Part shown: positions 1-8,505 of the stretch, piece after piece
Layout of the letters: each line of letters opens with the position of its first letter
Numbering within the stretch: the stretch's first letter is position 1
Virus record (IMG/VR): IMGVR_UViG_3300010392_000930
Coordinates: 1 to 22,806 of that record
DNA: 22,806 nucleotides
From: a virus
Strand: one strand, 5' to 3'
Notes under the pieces: generated by a model
Seen by the model: the letters and a program-made list of their open reading frames with translations, nothing else
Databases searched by the model: none
Told to the model about the DNA's origin: nothing
Position numbers and translations under genes: made by a program

Positions 1-1275
1 AAGATTAGCCCTAGAGACCCCAACGGTGTTATTGTAAATAACATCAGTACTCACCACCCCGCTCTCTATGATCACGCCCTTGGTCATGGCGTTGAAGTTA
101 TTATGCTGAATTTGGTTGGCTGTAGACTGTCTAAATCCAAGACCGCGCAAGATGACCCCGTATCTATCTCTAGTTCCCACGGTTCTTAGTATTTCATTAT
201 CGTGGATCTTGTTGTAGTTCGATGCTATATCAAAGGCAACAAAGTCTTCTGTAACCGATGCTATGTCATCATACAGCAAAACAAAGTTATCACTAAAGTG
301 GTTGTGGTTTGATGAGTTGCTATCTTCATCGGGGATCAGTACTGCATTAAGGGATACCGCAAAATGATTGTCTTGAACGGCTAGATAGTTTTCATCGCCA
401 GATTTAACAACGCCTTTCACACCTCCAATAATGTGATTATTGTTAACAACAAGCCCCCCTGATCCGTTTACATTAACGGCGACGTCAAAGTACGTGAAAT
501 CGCAACTATCAACAATTACATTATTTGAATCAACACAGTCTAGGCAAATTGGAGTGAGAGCGCTCACACTATCACCTTGCAGTGTTGACTTATTGATAAC
601 TGACTGACTGGCCTTGTCTAGTCTGATGCAGGTTGACCAGTACCCTGAGTCAATGCCCGCAGCTTTGGATAATAGGAATTGGAATTGCTGGTTATATGGA
701 TTGCTTAGATTTCCTGTGTAATTCATGCCCGTATACAAGCCTAGATCCTTCGTGTATAGGCCTACATTCCTAAACACAAGTGGCGCTCGTATATCGGCAT
801 TACTATTATTTACAATAAACCCATCACAGCCGCTAAACACAAAATAATCATTTATATTTGACGCTCCTGTAAACTCAAATGTTACATCGTCAAGAGTTAT
901 TGTGTTGGTTAAGAAGTAGCTACCAATGACGGACACTTGCTTTATCTCATTGCCTTTAACCCAAGCCAGTACTCTATTGAATTGTGTAGATTGATCAATC
1001 TCAACACCAGACACCATGCCAAAGGTTCTAAGATCAATAGATGGGCCTTTGGCTAATAACTCAAGCTGATTCCCATTTGCTAAGTTATGATATGAGCCGC
1101 CGTCATCTATGCCTGTACCTGTCGGAACAACAATATATTGAGCGCCTCCGCCGTCGCTTGTGTCGTAGTATCGTGACGTTTTGACTGTATCACCGATCTT
1201 TAGGGTTTTATCTGCCTTTGCGTCTGCTATGGAGTCGTATTGGCCTTTAATCTTTCTTCTTACTGTAGTTACCAT
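1..1275 (-). CDS. Second tailspike / receptor-binding protein, beta-helix type (partial, C-terminus beyond left edge)
   Basis: The frame is open without a stop from the ATG at 1273-1275 to the window edge, giving at least 425 residues. A GAGAGG ribosome site lies 6 bases before the ATG, which supports this start. The first 25 residues are basic and short; no P22-type head-binding domain is present. Residues 27-86 (YYDTSDGGGAQYIVV ... GGSYHNLANGNQLELL) closely match residues 222-285 of the neighbouring spike. The rest is rich in Asn, Val and Ile with motifs such as NNNHIIGG, DNHFAV and HNNFNAM, the spacing expected of a right-handed parallel beta-helix. By family knowledge such proteins bind or cleave surface polysaccharide. 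How it attaches to the virion is unclear: it may dock on the first spike or on the tail. It is the last visible late gene. Confidence 0.85.
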   Translation of the reverse strand, partial: MVTTVRRKIKGQYDSIADAKADKTLKIGDTVKTSRYYDTSDGGGAQYIVVPTGTGIDDGGSYHNLANGNQLELLAKGPSIDLRTFGMVSGVEIDQSTQFNRVLAWVKGNEIKQVSVIGSYFLTNTITLDDVTFEFTGASNINDYFVFSGCDGFIVNNSNADIRAPLVFRNVGLYTKDLGLYTGMNYTGNLSNPYNQQFQFLLSKAAGIDSGYWSTCIRLDKASQSVINKSTLQGDSVSALTPICLDCVDSNNVIVDSCDFTYFDVAVNVNGSGGLVVNNNHIIGGVKGVVKSGDENYLAVQDNHFAVSLNAVLIPDEDSNSSNHNHFSDNFVLLYDDIASVTEDFVAFDIASNYNKIHDNEILRTVGTRDRYGVILRGLGFRQSTANQIQHNNFNAMTKGVIIESGVVSTDVIYNNTVGVSRANL

Positions 1276-1314
1276 TTTAAGCCTCTCTAATTCTTGCTTG
1301 GGTTAATTATCGCT

Positions 1315-3600
1315 TTATGTGGCAATAAGACCGTGATTGCGCATAGCGTTTAGGATTTGGTTTATTTTTGCCTGCTCATCCCCGCCTACAGAATCCCCTA
1401 TGGCTGCCTGCTGTGCGCCCAGAACTTTCACATCGTCCACACTGTAACTACCCACGGTATTAACACCACCTGAATTGGTGACTTTAAACTTAAGGCGATC
1501 ATCCCCGTCCCCAAAGTCCAGCAACCTACCCTCACTCCCGATATTGAAAACCACGGAATCAGGGTCGCTCATTACAAAACGATCTAGGTTTGTACAGTTG
1601 AAGTATTTGTTGTTGATAAGCTGATTGAAATTACCAGTACCGTTTGATGTGTCGTTACCACCATCAGCAATACCCGTAACATTGTTGTCACTAATGTTGT
1701 TGTTCGCACTTTGGGTTCCTGTAGGCGTGTACGTTTGGAGGATAAATGCATCGCCAAATGATATTGATGTATATAGGGGGTTTTTCCCATCAATAGTATT
1801 AAACCCAACACTACAGCCTACGCAGCCACTAAGATCGAATGCAATTCCACTCGTAAATGTTGTAGGCGGGATTGCACCATTATCCATAGTGTGGCCAATG
1901 TTTTTCACTGTGTTACCTAGCATGGTGACACCAGTGCAGTCATCCATCCTAAATGCGCGCCATGCGCCCTCATTTGTATTGCCAATAATAGAGGCACCCG
2001 ATATTGATGCGCCAATGTACTGTAGGCTGATCGGTAGCAACGTGTTTTGCCCGTGACAGCCAGTAATACTGATATTCTCGGCGGCGCGTTTAACTGTCAC
2101 CCCTGCACAGCTATTAATAGAGTTTTGATTGCGGATTTTGACGCTTTTTGTGATGCCAAATTCTATATTATCTCCTGACATATAGACGCCCGCGTCTCGC
2201 TGGCCATAGTCCGTACAGTCATAAACTTTTACGTTTACCGCGCCAGCGGCGAATAACCCCCCATCACCCCCTGCAAGATTCCAATGGTCGTAACTGCCTA
2301 CTGTTGTAATGCCCTCTAGGTGAACCTCATCAACCGCTGGCTGACTGCCGCTATCAGTGTAGTAGCACTGCATATATATGGCTTCAGCGGTTGCAGTGGT
2401 TCCGACATTGACTGGCGGGTACGGCACAGAGAATGGGACTGATGTGGAGTTCTTTTGCAAGCGTTGGTCAAACCTACCACCCACCCACTTCCAGTTTAGT
2501 AGCCTACTGGGCAGTCCCGCGCCGTCAGCGGGTACTGTGATTCTAATCATATCCCCGTCAATGTCATCCGCTATGAATACTGCACTATCATCGCAAAGCA
2601 CATCTAAATCACTAACGAAGTTGTCAATCAGTGCGCCATCGGTGTTTGCACCCTTGTTGCTGATAAAATACTCGCCATCGGGCACATATAAAGGGCGCCC
2701 AAATCTAATGGCATTTATAAGGCTTGATGATATATCTGTGGCGCCGTCATTCTTAGTCCCGAAAGATAGCAGATTGACGCGACCATCAATAATCAGTTCA
2801 AGTTGGTTGCCATTGGCCATATCGTGATATGAGCCGCCGTCATCCACACCCGTCCCGTTTGCCACTACTGCGTATGTAGCGCCTCCGCCATCGTTTTCCG
2901 CATAGTATCCAGCGGTTGCAACAATACTACCAATAGGTGTAACCGTGTCTGCTATAGCCTCAGCAATATTCTCGTAAGTGAGTGCTTGCAACTCTGACCA
3001 GTTTAGAAGTGTGCGGCCATTTACAGTGCTCCCTCCAACATTTAGCACCTCTGGAGCGTAGAAGATTATATCTATATTTGTACCTTCTGGCGGGGCTACG
3101 CTAAAGACAATATTACCATCGTCATCAACCGTATAATCCAAAGAGGGGTATTGCGTGACACCATCTAGGCGAACAAAAAAGACAGCCGGATCATAATCTT
3201 GCGTAGCGGGAGAGCTGTAAATGGTAGAATTACCATCGGCTATCTGTCTAGGATGAACCTCTGGAATAGATGCGGAGCTCTCGGCATTCACTCTACTGAA
3301 GTAGTAAACCTGATTGTCATTTCTGTCATCAACACGCATAGAGTATGCGCCATCGACTAGAAGTGTTACATAGTTCCCGCTGCCATCAACGGGATAGCCG
3401 CCAGCACTAGTCCTGACTGGCTGAGCCAAGGGAACTTCGTCTCCGTCCTCTTGCCTGCCAAAGACCTGCTTTTGATTTGATGGGATATCAGCAGCCATTA
3501 GATCTGGCTCACCTATCCATATTTTTGCATTGAATAGCGGTCTACCGCGCTCTGGATCACCAAAGTACCCTAACGGGAGTCTTACTATTGAGTTTGCCAT
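1315..3600 (-). CDS. Tailspike with P22-type head-binding domain and beta-helix body
   Basis: 761 residues, start supported by AAGGTG upstream of the ATG. Residues 1-105 match the P22 gp9 head-binding domain (IWIGEPDL at 27-34, then VFGRQEDG, PLAQPVRTSAGGYPV, YSMRVDD), which fixes the spike to the tail hub. Residues 140-183 (FFVRLDGVTQYPSLDYTVDDD ... IDIIFYAP) resemble a connector found in many podophage spikes. Residues 222-285 are the module shared with the next gene. The segment from about 290 to 640 has beta-helix character (SITGCHGQN, ASIIGNTNEG, VTMLGNTVKN). The C-terminus ends in an LNAMRNHGLIAT helix, a motif seen at the ends of trimeric phage fibres and at the P22 needle end (LRAHGLID). 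Expected to be a homotrimeric adhesin or glycan-degrading enzyme; no catalytic residues can be assigned by eye. Confidence 0.9.
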   Translation of the reverse strand: MANSIVRLPLGYFGDPERGRPLFNAKIWIGEPDLMAADIPSNQKQVFGRQEDGDEVPLAQPVRTSAGGYPVDGSGNYVTLLVDGAYSMRVDDRNDNQVYYFSRVNAESSASIPEVHPRQIADGNSTIYSSPATQDYDPAVFFVRLDGVTQYPSLDYTVDDDGNIVFSVAPPEGTNIDIIFYAPEVLNVGGSTVNGRTLLNWSELQALTYENIAEAIADTVTPIGSIVATAGYYAENDGGGATYAVVANGTGVDDGGSYHDMANGNQLELIIDGRVNLLSFGTKNDGATDISSSLINAIRFGRPLYVPDGEYFISNKGANTDGALIDNFVSDLDVLCDDSAVFIADDIDGDMIRITVPADGAGLPSRLLNWKWVGGRFDQRLQKNSTSVPFSVPYPPVNVGTTATAEAIYMQCYYTDSGSQPAVDEVHLEGITTVGSYDHWNLAGGDGGLFAAGAVNVKVYDCTDYGQRDAGVYMSGDNIEFGITKSVKIRNQNSINSCAGVTVKRAAENISITGCHGQNTLLPISLQYIGASISGASIIGNTNEGAWRAFRMDDCTGVTMLGNTVKNIGHTMDNGAIPPTTFTSGIAFDLSGCVGCSVGFNTIDGKNPLYTSISFGDAFILQTYTPTGTQSANNNISDNNVTGIADGGNDTSNGTGNFNQLINNKYFNCTNLDRFVMSDPDSVVFNIGSEGRLLDFGDGDDRLKFKVTNSGGVNTVGSYSVDDVKVLGAQQAAIGDSVGGDEQAKINQILNAMRNHGLIAT

Positions 3601-5520: not shown

Positions 5521-6404
5521 TACATATCCCCCCAGTTAACCACTTGAGTGTCTTTTGTTGGGAGCTTTCCGGCTATCTTGTTTTTAGCTTTGGTCGTCAT
5601 CTCTTCAATGTAATTAAGCTCCCGCTTGAATTCATCTTCAGACATACTTAAATCAAGCGCCGAAGCTGCGGCGGCTAGTTTTTTACCTTCATTCTCAGAA
5701 AGCGCCCCCATTCCTTTTAGCCTACCAACCTCATTCAAAAATTGCTGGCTTTTCAACTGCTCCAATCTAGCCTCAAAGTTAGCCGCCTCTGATCCTGCTA
5801 TTGTTGGAAGTAAGGAGCTAGTCCCTACCGCAGCTTCTAGGCCGCCACCAGTCTTTAATTGCGTGATTGTGTTCAGTGTGCTTTCAACGGTTGCCAAGTC
5901 GGACTCCAAGCCCTCTTGTACGTCTCGCTTAGACTGATCTAGCTTTGATCGCCTATCTTGTATCTTTAGTTGCAACTCTTCACGCTTAAGTTCGTTATCT
6001 TCACGCTTTAATTGTTGCTCTAACTTTCTGGCCTGATTTTCTAGTTTACGCTGCTCTAGTGCCATCTTCTTAACGTCTATGGATTCACGCTGATAAGGCG
6101 TAATTTCTTCAGGCTGGCCGATCTGCTCTAATTGAGCCTGCTCCATTTGTAGGGTGGTTTGCTGTCGTAATTGCTGGGCCTGCTTAGGGTATTTGGTGAA
6201 AACCTCAGTTAATAACTGCTGTTTAATCTTTGGATCTTGAGCGGCATTAACCTGACCCATAGCCGTTAAGAACTCTTGAGCTTTGACCGCTTCTTGCTCT
6301 TGTTGGCGCTCTTGTGCAAAGTAGCCGCCAGTAGCCTTGGCAAGATCGCCTAGGCCGCCCATGCCAAAAGACAAAGCGGGAGTCACTGTAAAAGGATTAG
6401 CCAT
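5520..6404 (-). CDS. P22 gp20-like DNA ejection protein
   Basis: 294 residues, shorter than P22 gp20 (471). Residues 110-180 are a long charged, Gln/Lys/Glu-rich heptad region, a probable coiled coil. Residues 187-268 carry a block typical of phage DNA-transfer proteins: GLEAAVGTSSLLP, then FEARLEQLKSQQFLNEV, then LKGMGALSENEGKKLAAA, then FKRELNYIEEM. It overlaps the previous gene by 8 bases and the next by one base (TAATG), giving a coupled ejection-protein operon. By homology it enters the cell with gp7 and gp16 homologues and forms part of a trans-envelope channel. The identification as gp20-like is from order and the C-terminal block. Confidence 0.8.
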   Translation of the reverse strand: MANPFTVTPALSFGMGGLGDLAKATGGYFAQERQQEQEAVKAQEFLTAMGQVNAAQDPKIKQQLLTEVFTKYPKQAQQLRQQTTLQMEQAQLEQIGQPEEITPYQRESIDVKKMALEQRKLENQARKLEQQLKREDNELKREELQLKIQDRRSKLDQSKRDVQEGLESDLATVESTLNTITQLKTGGGLEAAVGTSSLLPTIAGSEAANFEARLEQLKSQQFLNEVGRLKGMGALSENEGKKLAAAASALDLSMSEDEFKRELNYIEEMTTKAKNKIAGKLPTKDTQVVNWGDM

Positions 6405-7338
6405 TTTTAATTTCCTCTAGGCGCTGCTCTACCAATTCTTTATGGATGCGCTTATATCCATCTTCACCCGTTACAACCAAATCAGGCCAGACCTGTTCAA
6501 CATCCTGAGCTAGATAGCCGCGCTCTTTGCCGCTCTTGCCTAGCCTCTCAGCCTCGCCATTCCACTCCCATTCGTAATAAGGGATGAATGGATGCGACGT
6601 GTGCTTGATTAGGTTTATATTTTCTTTTAGTCGTTTATCAGATATGGCCGCCGCTCCTAGCATTCCACCAAGTCCTAGGAGATTTCCCATGGCTTGCTGC
6701 TCAGCTTGCGCCCCTGCCGTAATGCCTTGGGCTTGCGTTGCCCCGATGCCCGCCTGAGCTTGTGCGATCTGAGGGACCATGCTTGGTAGACTTGCAAGCG
6801 AACCAAGACCTGCTAGTCGCTGCTGCTCTTGCTGTTGTTGCTGCCCAAACGATTGCATAAGTGCTTCATTTTGAAGTTGGGTGTTGTAATTAATTAAACT
6901 TGATGTTGTCGCGCCGCCACGAAGACCCCCGCCCGACGCTGTTGCTCGTCTAGCTAAGGACTCTTCACCAGCTTCTCGACCACCTAAAATGGATTGGTAA
7001 AGCGCGCTATCTTTGGCTTGAGCTATCTGCTGCTCTTGTGTTGGGCGTGTAGGATCAATCTGGCTGAAATCATACTGTCCTGTAGGGTTTCCGGCGGCAT
7101 CCAATTGAGGAGTTAGGCCAATTCCGTAATACGCACCTAGCTGACTGAGAGCGCCCTCGCGGAAAGCTTGTGGCATTGCTTCAGTCTGCATTAGGTAGTC
7201 CAATGCCTCTCGCTGAGCCTCGGCGCTTATTCCGGCCGCATCTTTAGCTGCTTCTGAAGCTGTCTCACCCGTAAGGCCGCCGTACAATTGTGTACCCGCA
7301 TCTTCTAGTCCTGCAAAGGCGTTGCTTGCATCACCCAT
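6397..7338 (-). CDS. P22 gp7-like ejection protein with C-terminal S74-type chaperone domain
   Basis: 313 residues. Residues 1-230 are rich in Ala, Gln and Gly with stretches such as GQQQQQEQQ and AQAQAGIGATQAQG, common in internal virion proteins; LLGLGGMLGAAA before residue 231 is hydrophobic. Residues 232-313 match the peptidase_S74 / intramolecular chaperone family: SDKRLKENI at 233-241 (the SDxRLKxNI signature with candidate Ser233 and Lys238) and GYLAQDVEQVWPDLV at 274-288. That domain normally ends tail spikes and fibres, trimerises them and cuts itself off. Here it is short, about 80 residues, and lies on a protein in the gp7 position. Whether cleavage occurs cannot be told from sequence. 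It overlaps both neighbours by 8 bases. Confidence 0.8.
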   Translation of the reverse strand: MGDASNAFAGLEDAGTQLYGGLTGETASEAAKDAAGISAEAQREALDYLMQTEAMPQAFREGALSQLGAYYGIGLTPQLDAAGNPTGQYDFSQIDPTRPTQEQQIAQAKDSALYQSILGGREAGEESLARRATASGGGLRGGATTSSLINYNTQLQNEALMQSFGQQQQQEQQRLAGLGSLASLPSMVPQIAQAQAGIGATQAQGITAGAQAEQQAMGNLLGLGGMLGAAAISDKRLKENINLIKHTSHPFIPYYEWEWNGEAERLGKSGKERGYLAQDVEQVWPDLVVTGEDGYKRIHKELVEQRLEEIKNG

Positions 7339-7783
7339 CTATATCCTTCCTCTGTAGACCCATTATGTAGCGGTCTATTAGTTGGCCGCCTTTCATTATT
7401 GATTTCTTGTCCAAGCCTTCATCTTCAAAGCCCGCGAACTTCGCAAAATTGTAAACATCCTGATAAATCACAGGAATCTTACAAATAAACTTTTGAATTT
7501 CTGGCGCTGCATTCTTCTTCATCTCAGAGAAAAACAACTTAGGCATTTGCTTTGCCTTATCTCTATGCCTTTCCGGTATGTTTATATGGATAGTCATTGT
7601 TGTTTTATTTTCAGGATGAAGCCTAATAAACCCTATTAGCTCATCACCGAAGACGCCTACATATAAGTGATCTCTATGAAGCCTAATATTATCAGCATTC
7701 GTATAGTCATCAGAGATTCTATCTAAAAGCTCAGCGTCTATGATTTCCGACGCTTGATCCGGTGTTATTAGCTCAAACCTCAT
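7331..7783 (-). CDS. P22 gp14-like protein (DUF2824, GNAT-like fold)
   Basis: 150 residues, between the needle and gp7-like genes exactly as gene 14 is in P22 (172 residues). The sequence shows an acetyltransferase-like pattern: HLYVGVFGDELIGFIRLHPEN as a beta hairpin, TMTIHINIPERHRDKAKQM as the strand and helix over the cofactor site, and a C-terminal FAKFAGFEDEGL segment. The canonical acetyl-CoA loop (R/QxxGxG/A) is replaced by RHRDKA, so activity is doubtful. In P22 gp14 affects head assembly, but its role is poorly defined. It overlaps the needle gene by 4 bases (ATGA) and the next gene by 8. Confidence 0.75.
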   Translation of the reverse strand: MRFELITPDQASEIIDAELLDRISDDYTNADNIRLHRDHLYVGVFGDELIGFIRLHPENKTTMTIHINIPERHRDKAKQMPKLFFSEMKKNAAPEIQKFICKIPVIYQDVYNFAKFAGFEDEGLDKKSIMKGGQLIDRYIMGLQRKDIDG

Positions 7784-8505
7784 ACTGTATTCATCTGCTT
7801 GGCGTCCTTCATTTGCTGTAGAAGGTCGTTGAATTGAGTGATCAAATCTAATACATCATTATTAATCAGTGAGTTAATCTTGGCCTTACATTCGTTTGTT
7901 AAAGCGGTTTGCTGATCCGCATAAGCTTGGTCATAAGTGGCGGGAGCCGCGCCCACGTCCGCCGTAGCTATGACTGTGGTGGTAGCAGATACATCGGCCA
8001 CCAAGTCAGCTAAAAGCACAGCACCACCTATGGCGGTTTGCGCATAATCCTCAGTACCCACATTATCACCAGTTACACCATGAGCAGCCGTTAGCGCCTC
8101 ATGCGTGTCTAGGTTAGCCGCACCTTCATCTATGGCCGCTTGCACCTCGATAGCTGTATAGCCGCTAGTGGTGCCATCATAAGAGATTGCGCTAGCGGCA
8201 TGAGCGCCTGCCGTGTTACCTATATGATCACTTATAGCTATGGCGTTAGCGGCTATATTGTCTGCGTTATTGCTAACGCCTAACGTGTTAGAGTCTATTT
8301 CGTCCTGCTGATCTATGTTTGTTTGTGTGTTTACAGCAACTTGCTCCTGAAGAGTGCTGCTTTCTTCATTTAGAGTCGTCACCTCTTCTCGCGCTTCGAT
8401 GTAATCTTTAATAAATGAATCGGGCAGCGAGGTCATAGCTTTTAGATCTTTATAGGAGAATCTAAACTGCCTACGCCTTAACGCCTCTTCTTTAGATATA
8501 GCCAT
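7780..8505 (-). CDS. Tail needle-like protein (P22 gp26 position)
   Basis: 241 residues; P22 gp26 is 233. Residues 1-35 form a basic head, and residues 36-94 are a heptad-rich coiled coil (REEVTTLNEESSTLQEQV, then NTLGVSNNADNIAANAIAI). The middle has the fibre-type segments YTAIEVQAAIDEG and AAHGVTGDNVGTEDYAQTAI. The C-terminal 45 residues are helical again (INSLINNDVLDLITQFNDLL). Such a layout suits a trimeric fibre that plugs the portal channel and pierces the outer membrane. It lies directly after the gp10-like gene with a one-base stop/start overlap, as in P22. Sequence identity with gp26 itself is low, so the call is from position, size and coiled-coil architecture. Confidence 0.7.
   Translation of the reverse strand: MAISKEEALRRRQFRFSYKDLKAMTSLPDSFIKDYIEAREEVTTLNEESSTLQEQVAVNTQTNIDQQDEIDSNTLGVSNNADNIAANAIAISDHIGNTAGAHAASAISYDGTTSGYTAIEVQAAIDEGAANLDTHEALTAAHGVTGDNVGTEDYAQTAIGGAVLLADLVADVSATTTVIATADVGAAPATYDQAYADQQTALTNECKAKINSLINNDVLDLITQFNDLLQQMKDAKQMNTV

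Follow-up and report, generated by a model that had tools for sequence, protein, structure and literature searches.

A predicted P22-like podovirus likely carries an anchor-branched pair of tailspikes, the second probably held by a short N-terminal peptide

Introduction

In Klebsiella phages of the KP32 and KP34 type, the first receptor-binding protein (RBP) has an anchor together with a T4gp10-like docking domain, or there is a separate adaptor, and in these phages as in those of the K1-5/SP6 type the second RBP carries a depolymerase body of its own behind a short conserved N-terminal peptide of 7-29 residues (PMC6872550). In E. coli phage CBA120 the XD2 region of tailspike TSP4 is the binding site of TSP2, and the XD2 and XD3 domains of T4 gp10 likewise bind other trimers (PMC8825819). 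Here we describe two adjacent spike genes at one end of a 22.8-kb marine viral record (IMG/VR record IMGVR_UViG_3300010392_000930, positions 1 to 22,806; "the window" below means this whole stretch), which likely encode a two-spike, anchor-branched apparatus.

We consider it probable that the window belongs to a P22-like podovirus in which spike 2 is held by its N-terminal peptide on an XD2-like domain of spike 1, and not by the D3' fold that the two spikes share. Spike 1 would bind the virion through its P22-type head-binding domain, as homology indicates, and the XD2/T4-gp10-like jellyroll behind this anchor would serve as docking site, by analogy with CBA120, G7C and the Klebsiella phages. 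Spike 2, which has no anchor of its own, would be held by a peptide of about 12 residues binding the XD2-like trimer of spike 1, as the near-perfect co-occurrence of peptide and domain in relatives suggests. Judging from known two-RBP phages, the two distinct beta-helix bodies would probably let the phage attack two surface polysaccharides (PMC6872550).

Results and Discussion

Layout of the spike locus

By its gene content the window is assigned to a P22-like podovirus, with matches to the P22 Pfam families for portal (PF16510, E 5e-124), coat (PF11651, E 2.5e-54) and packaged-DNA stabilisation (PF11134, E 2e-49). The spike genes are the final two at its low end, both on the minus strand and 39 bases apart, and comprise the following features.

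1315..3600, minus strand: spike 1, complete, 761 amino acids; P22-type head-binding domain, XD2-like docking domain, D3' module and beta-helix-type body
3289..3597, minus strand: P22-type head-binding domain (predicted virion anchor), spike 1 residues 2-104; Pfam PF09008, E 4.5e-11; PDB 7sg7, 1lkt, 8eb7
3037..3273, minus strand: predicted XD2/T4-gp10-like docking domain, spike 1 residues 110-188; hidden Markov model (HMM), profile against PDB, AlphaFold2 (AF2) fold match
2734..2976, minus strand: shared module (predicted D3' fold), spike 1 residues 209-289; BLASTP, iterated profile, PDB profile match
1318..2733, minus strand: spike 1 body and C-terminal tail, residues 290-761; likeness to an Aeromonas phage tail spike
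1276..1314, minus strand: intergenic gap between the spike genes, 39 bp; holds ribosome-binding-like AGAGAGG at 1282-1288
1..1275, minus strand: spike 2, 425 amino acids, cut by the contig end; N-terminal peptide, D3' module and beta-helix-type body
1240..1275, minus strand: candidate docking peptide MVTTVRRKIKGQ, spike 2 residues 1-12; resembles M[TV]TK.NNRMIDG of relatives' second spikes
994..1239, minus strand: shared module (predicted D3' fold), spike 2 residues 13-94; BLASTP, iterated profile, AF2 model against PDB
1..993, minus strand: spike 2 beta-helix-type body, incomplete, residues 95-425; weak Pfam NosD match, AF2 confidence low past residue 140
2825..2844, minus strand: 20-base exact match, spike 1 copy (codes DDGGSY plus 2 bases); read from the sequence
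1088..1107, minus strand: 20-base exact match, spike 2 copy; read from the sequence

Spike 1 has an anchor and a predicted docking domain

The head-binding match of spike 1 exceeded the Pfam gathering score, the main PDB matches of the spike 1 N-terminus likewise ended at residue 104, and this anchor was 66-68% identical to the head-binding domain of the P22-like relatives L004 and L007; a search with the domain found only three loci. Between the anchor and the shared module lies the docking domain, which an HMM built from other phages, with the window excluded, found at E 3.2e-23. The same HMM had no match in the spikes of the P22-like relatives L004, L007 and L011 or of Vibrio phage 1.275.O, and only one spike is present in L007 and in 1.275.O, two of the phages that lack the domain. 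Searched against PDB, the docking-domain profile matched CBA120 TSP4 residues 201-260 (E 6e-4), and an AF2 model of the domain (mean predicted local distance difference test score, pLDDT, 74.5) aligned with TSP4 residues 185-251 at Z 8.4 (root-mean-square deviation 2.2 Å over 67 residues) and with T4 gp10 at Z 6.6. By profile and modelled fold, spike 1 residues 110-188 are assigned to the T4-gp10/XD2 type and, since the XD2 regions of TSP4 and T4 gp10 bind other trimers, this domain is a plausible socket for spike 2.

In the anchor-branched systems of G7C, KP32, KP34 and CBA120 the first RBP combines an anchor with a T4gp10/XD2-like domain, and spike 1 has this combination by sequence and predicted fold. 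A preliminary description of this DNA had proposed a branched receptor-binding system in which the module common to both spikes was the docking or trimerisation joint; the branching is retained here, as is the statement that spike 2 lacks a head-binding domain (no Pfam match to one, against residues 2-104 of spike 1), and the role given to the module is not.

Spike 2 begins with a candidate docking peptide

The spike 2 ATG lies at 1275, with AGAGAGG upstream at 1282-1288 and just nine further open codons upstream (434-codon open frame). As had been described before, the protein begins almost at the shared module, with only 12-14 residues ahead of it. These residues, MVTTVRRKIKGQ, look like a diverged version of MTTKVNNRMIDG, with which the second spikes of many marine phages, mostly of Vibrio and from unrelated families, begin. 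Aligned with one gap, the window peptide and MTTKV(N)NRMIDG have M, T, V, R, I and G in common, and when scored with a position matrix the window peptide ranked second among 755 N-termini, with P 4e-4 on random sequence and P 0.003 on its own shuffles. A PDB search matched no chain in the peptide part, the matches lying mainly at the beta-helix start, and the string NNRMIDG was absent from the open-access literature searched.

Because searches of viral contigs with the whole spikes gave no relatives, these were reached via the gp10-like gene. In the P22-like Vibrio phages 234P9 and 5P1a, a spike with anchor and XD2 domain is followed 1 bp on by a beta-helix protein whose sequence starts MVTKTNNRMIDG and in which D3' is absent. 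A start of the form M(T/V)TK.NNRMIDG is also carried by second spikes of Vibrio phages from other families, namely of the Zobellviridae 1.264.O, PS32B.11, VPMCC5 and 521E56-1, of the schitovirus pVa5 (Schitoviridae) and of podovirus 526E57-1, and it recurs in the large phages D69 (three copies) and K469 and in jumbo phage 2.275.O; all of these peptide-bearing phages have an XD2-like domain. A tblastn search with the docking domain returned 42 phage records, all from Vibrio phages, and a search with the peptide returned 36 (32 Vibrio), with 29 records common to both lists; PS32B.11 carries the peptide although the peptide search did not list it.

Co-occurrence was counted in 30 viral contigs found with a DNA pattern for NNRMIDG, in 22 of which the peptide heads a long reading frame. 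The docking domain was present in 19 of these 22 (15 in the fetched stretch and four more in the whole record), mostly in the same-strand gene immediately before the peptide gene. The remaining three contigs end less than 1 kb upstream of the peptide gene; hence the domain was found in 19 of 19 assessable contigs. It was found in none of 26 control contigs (seven in which the pattern lies elsewhere, 15 that carry the D3' module, and four P22-like relatives), one of which, L012, had a marginal hit in another scan. Searching in reverse from the docking domain, we found an adjacent peptide gene in all three of the closest contigs, two of which had already been seen. Several unrelated phage families are represented in the co-occurrence set.

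Some of these contigs have unusual arrangements. The third contig from the reverse search (L088, 705-1505) encodes a 267-residue docking-domain protein that has almost no body and resembles a separate adaptor; the spike directly after it starts MTTKVNLRMIDQ. In L077 (297-2600), a contig outside the 22, a docking-domain spike is followed by a second spike ended by a stop after about 20 codons (MAITKTNNRMIDGSVVNVLD), much as a second RBP has been reported to be truncated in Klebsiella phage KpV767 (PMC6872550). Some first spikes have two XD2-like domains (L047, 8287-10932; L050, 8512-10785; L069, 7059-8156); together with the three peptide-bearing second spikes of D69, they look as if socket and plug numbers were matched.

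A wider reading, which we regard as an even call, is that the NNRMIDG-type peptide and the XD2-like domain form a plug that marine phages, mostly of Vibrio and from many unrelated families, use in common for extra spikes, which allows spikes to move among P22-like, T7-like, N4-like, T4-like and jumbo phages. The window would then hold a diverged, possibly privately co-evolved version (an RRKIKG peptide and an altered socket) with an added D3'.

Weighing the docking model

Several observations speak against docking of spike 2 by its peptide. The NNRMID core is missing from the window peptide, which aligns only with a gap and reaches no more than moderate significance, and we had already noticed the likeness before making the comparison; because the window's own peptide is the weakest link, we hold our confidence in the docking model at probable. 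On the domain side, XD2-like jellyrolls are common in phage tails, and T7 gp17, T5 and other proteins match the docking-domain model nearly as well. The association also has its exceptions: seven of the 36 peptide records had no docking domain at E 0.01, phage 275E43-1 has the domain and no second spike within the stretch read, and more distant docking-domain homologues are large tail proteins without a peptide partner. Finally, the phages counted for co-occurrence share ancestry to a greater or lesser extent, and their counts therefore do not represent independent events.

We think it unlikely that spike 2 is absent from the virion, either as a free depolymerase or as a gene decaying after loss of its anchor. 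It does lack an anchor domain, the gene is incomplete in the contig, and the second spike of the relative L077 is truncated to the peptide and a stop; on the other hand, spike 2 has a ribosome-binding-like site and an intact 425-codon frame adjoining spike 1, and both the gene order and the N-terminal peptide, needless for a free enzyme, are conserved across several phage families. The 234P9 record, moreover, labels the relative of spike 2 as a virion structural protein, by annotation only.

That spike 2 attaches not to spike 1 but to another part of the virion, such as the tail hub or an adaptor like the 241-residue protein at 7780-8505, seems to us very unlikely. No function is assigned to other genes lying between the head-closure protein and the spikes, and adaptors are separate proteins in other phages (K1-5 gp37; PMC6872550), but the window has its XD2-like domain within spike 1 itself, and peptide genes come after XD2-bearing genes in nearly all relatives, whatever the remaining tail type.

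The shared module is predicted to be the D3' fold

The preliminary description had reported close copies in the two spikes at residues 222-285 and 27-86. BLASTP bore out the likeness as beyond chance at the protein level and placed it over a somewhat longer stretch (spike 1 residues 209-315 against spike 2 residues 13-124, 48/112 identities, 43%, E 2e-21) around a module of about 80 residues; the reported motifs DGGGA-Y, GTG-DDGGSYH and ANGNQLEL occur in both spikes, and the identical 20-base stretch, GATGACGGCGGCTCATATCA, is exact at 2825-2844 and 1088-1107, with a 17-nt core.

An iterated profile located the module 33 times, at protein positions 15 to 497 of spikes and fibres from P22-like, SPO1-like, T7-like, N4-like and other phages and commonly just before a beta-helix-like body; it occurs in phages with no observed spike pair and twice within a single chain of VSW-3. 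Against PDB, the module profile matched Acinetobacter phage spikes 8oq0 (E 9e-5) and 6c72 (E 0.004). The D3' fold has been delimited at residues 270-328 in TSP2, 503-557 in TSP4, 209-269 in Fri1 gp49, 37-96 in AM24 and 23-82 in AS12, and contributes little to trimer association in TSP2 (PMC7506556). From residues 7-12 on, our AF2 model of spike 2 aligned with 6w4q from 266, 5w6h from 499, 6c72 from 204, 5w5p from 29 and 6eu4 from 16, with moderate Z scores of 6.2-7.8 over the whole models. Because the model is confident only to about residue 140, with low confidence in the body beyond, and the Z scores are moderate, we rest the assignment on the five coinciding boundaries and the profile hits. 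On these grounds the module is assigned to the tailspike D3' fold of CBA120 TSP2/TSP4 and Acinetobacter phage spikes, with the position of that fold (about 59 residues directly before the beta-helix, as in TSP2, TSP4 and Fri1 gp49).

D3' was present in none of 29 distinct peptide-bearing second spikes and in one of 35 distinct docking-domain proteins, spike 1 of the window, and 35 module proteins had no docking domain; docking therefore does not need the module, and the same counts rule out the module as a marker of branched systems. The two modules of the window are closest to one another (53% identity, sisters in the tree with support 97/83), and sister pairs were also formed by the modules of the L015 tandem spikes (96/89) and by the internal pair of VSW-3 (99/97), all on long branches. 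That the modules themselves form the joint, by packing together or by mixing or aligning trimers, is in our view very unlikely: the sister pairs of the window and L015 and the docking of CBA120 TSP1 and TSP3 through head domains (PMC8825819), by which small N-terminal folds can dock, speak for it, but those head domains are D1/D2 and not D3', D3' makes few trimer contacts in TSP2 (PMC7506556), the L015 spikes share their preceding N-termini and not the modules alone, and the module's distribution, just given, runs against it.

It had also been suggested that the module is a reservoir for swapping spike bodies by recombination. Among 82 identical residues, 32 codons were identical against 30.1 expected from codon usage (P 0.37), so the DNA identity is mostly explained by shared amino acids, although the longest run of identical codons, six, was somewhat unusual (P 0.01). 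With synonymous sites no more alike than expected, recent gene conversion was rejected and the reservoir is unsupported, and in relatives with the same head-binding domain the architecture switches right behind the anchor (residue ~105), ahead of the module. A nucleotide search for the module in phage records gave one trivial hit. Since the modules are sisters in the tree, an older exchange or duplication may have occurred, and the pairing fits an old duplication or a common mosaic source. We conclude that D3' is a generic tailspike element ahead of the beta-helix, which both spikes owe to an old duplication or to shared mosaic ancestry and which docking can do without.

Two relatives show further arrangements of D3'. 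The tandem spikes of L015 (2978-5462) share an N-terminus of about 50 residues and the D3' module (70% identical), and the first of them has an S74-like C-terminus. In the P22-like relative L004 (15044-17143), a head-binding domain 68% identical to that of spike 1 has D3' directly behind it and then an unrelated fibre-like body.

Spike bodies and a neighbouring gene

Residues 281-579 of the spike 1 body (window 1864-2760) share 37% identity across 299 residues with the Aeromonas phage AeroV_348 tail spike. Annotations in the record of that phage include a tail sheath initiator and baseplate wedge proteins; the likeness suggests that bodies have been exchanged between different tail types. The spike 2 gene leaves the contig at base 1, and its C-terminus, which lies beyond the window, was not recovered from L003 (identical gp10 protein), which extends only ~1.7 kb past its gp10 gene and, searched as a whole record with spike 2, gave no match. 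At 6397-7338 on the minus strand the window encodes a virion or DNA-ejection-like protein with a C-terminal Peptidase_S74 (endosialidase chaperone) domain (PF13884, E 1e-8), to which relatives L004 and L007 have a similar C-terminus. Peptidase_S74 is usually a trimerisation chaperone of spikes and fibres.

Comparison with known systems

If the docking model is correct, the actual joint of a two-spike apparatus is named, and a short sequence tag becomes available for finding additional RBPs of marine phages that lack annotation and at present mostly stand as hypothetical proteins. A peptide-socket pair used across unrelated tails would also be a direct route for exchanging host-range determinants between phage families, and the model is testable with small recombinant proteins. 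In the open literature searched, with most subscription journals outside it, we found no description of a P22-type anchor combined with an XD2-type socket, or of a peptide common to many marine phage families.

To our knowledge, neither an XD2-like docking domain nor D3' intervenes between the anchor and the body of the P22 and Sf6 spikes. Spike 1 of the window is like these tailspikes (PDB 1lkt, 7sg7) in its head-binding domain and beta-helix body. Vibrio phages 234P9 and 5P1a share with the window the P22-like arrangement and a spike with anchor and XD2 followed by an anchor-less beta-helix spike starting M-V-T; their second spikes differ in lacking D3' and in having the canonical NNRMIDG peptide. 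No experimental study of the spikes of these two phages was found.

As in the anchor-branched RBPs of the KP32/KP34 type, spike 1 combines an anchor with a T4gp10-like domain, and spike 2 lacks an anchor and has a predicted depolymerase body of its own. The short peptide at the start of spike 2, a candidate counterpart of theirs, is clearly conserved in relatives and diverged in the window. The KP32/KP34 and K1-5/SP6 phages, however, have T7-type anchors and unrelated peptides, whereas the window has a P22-type anchor and an NNRMIDG-related peptide. The window also resembles the CBA120 pair TSP4/TSP2 (PDB 7rej, 6w4q; PMC8825819, PMC7506556), in which an XD2-type jellyroll lies behind the anchor, D3' precedes the beta-helix, and the second spike has no virion anchor of its own. 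Unlike CBA120, the window has a P22 head-binding domain as anchor, a single XD2-like domain was seen, with neither XD1 nor XD3, and spike 2 has a 12-residue peptide where TSP2 has its XD2-XD3 region.

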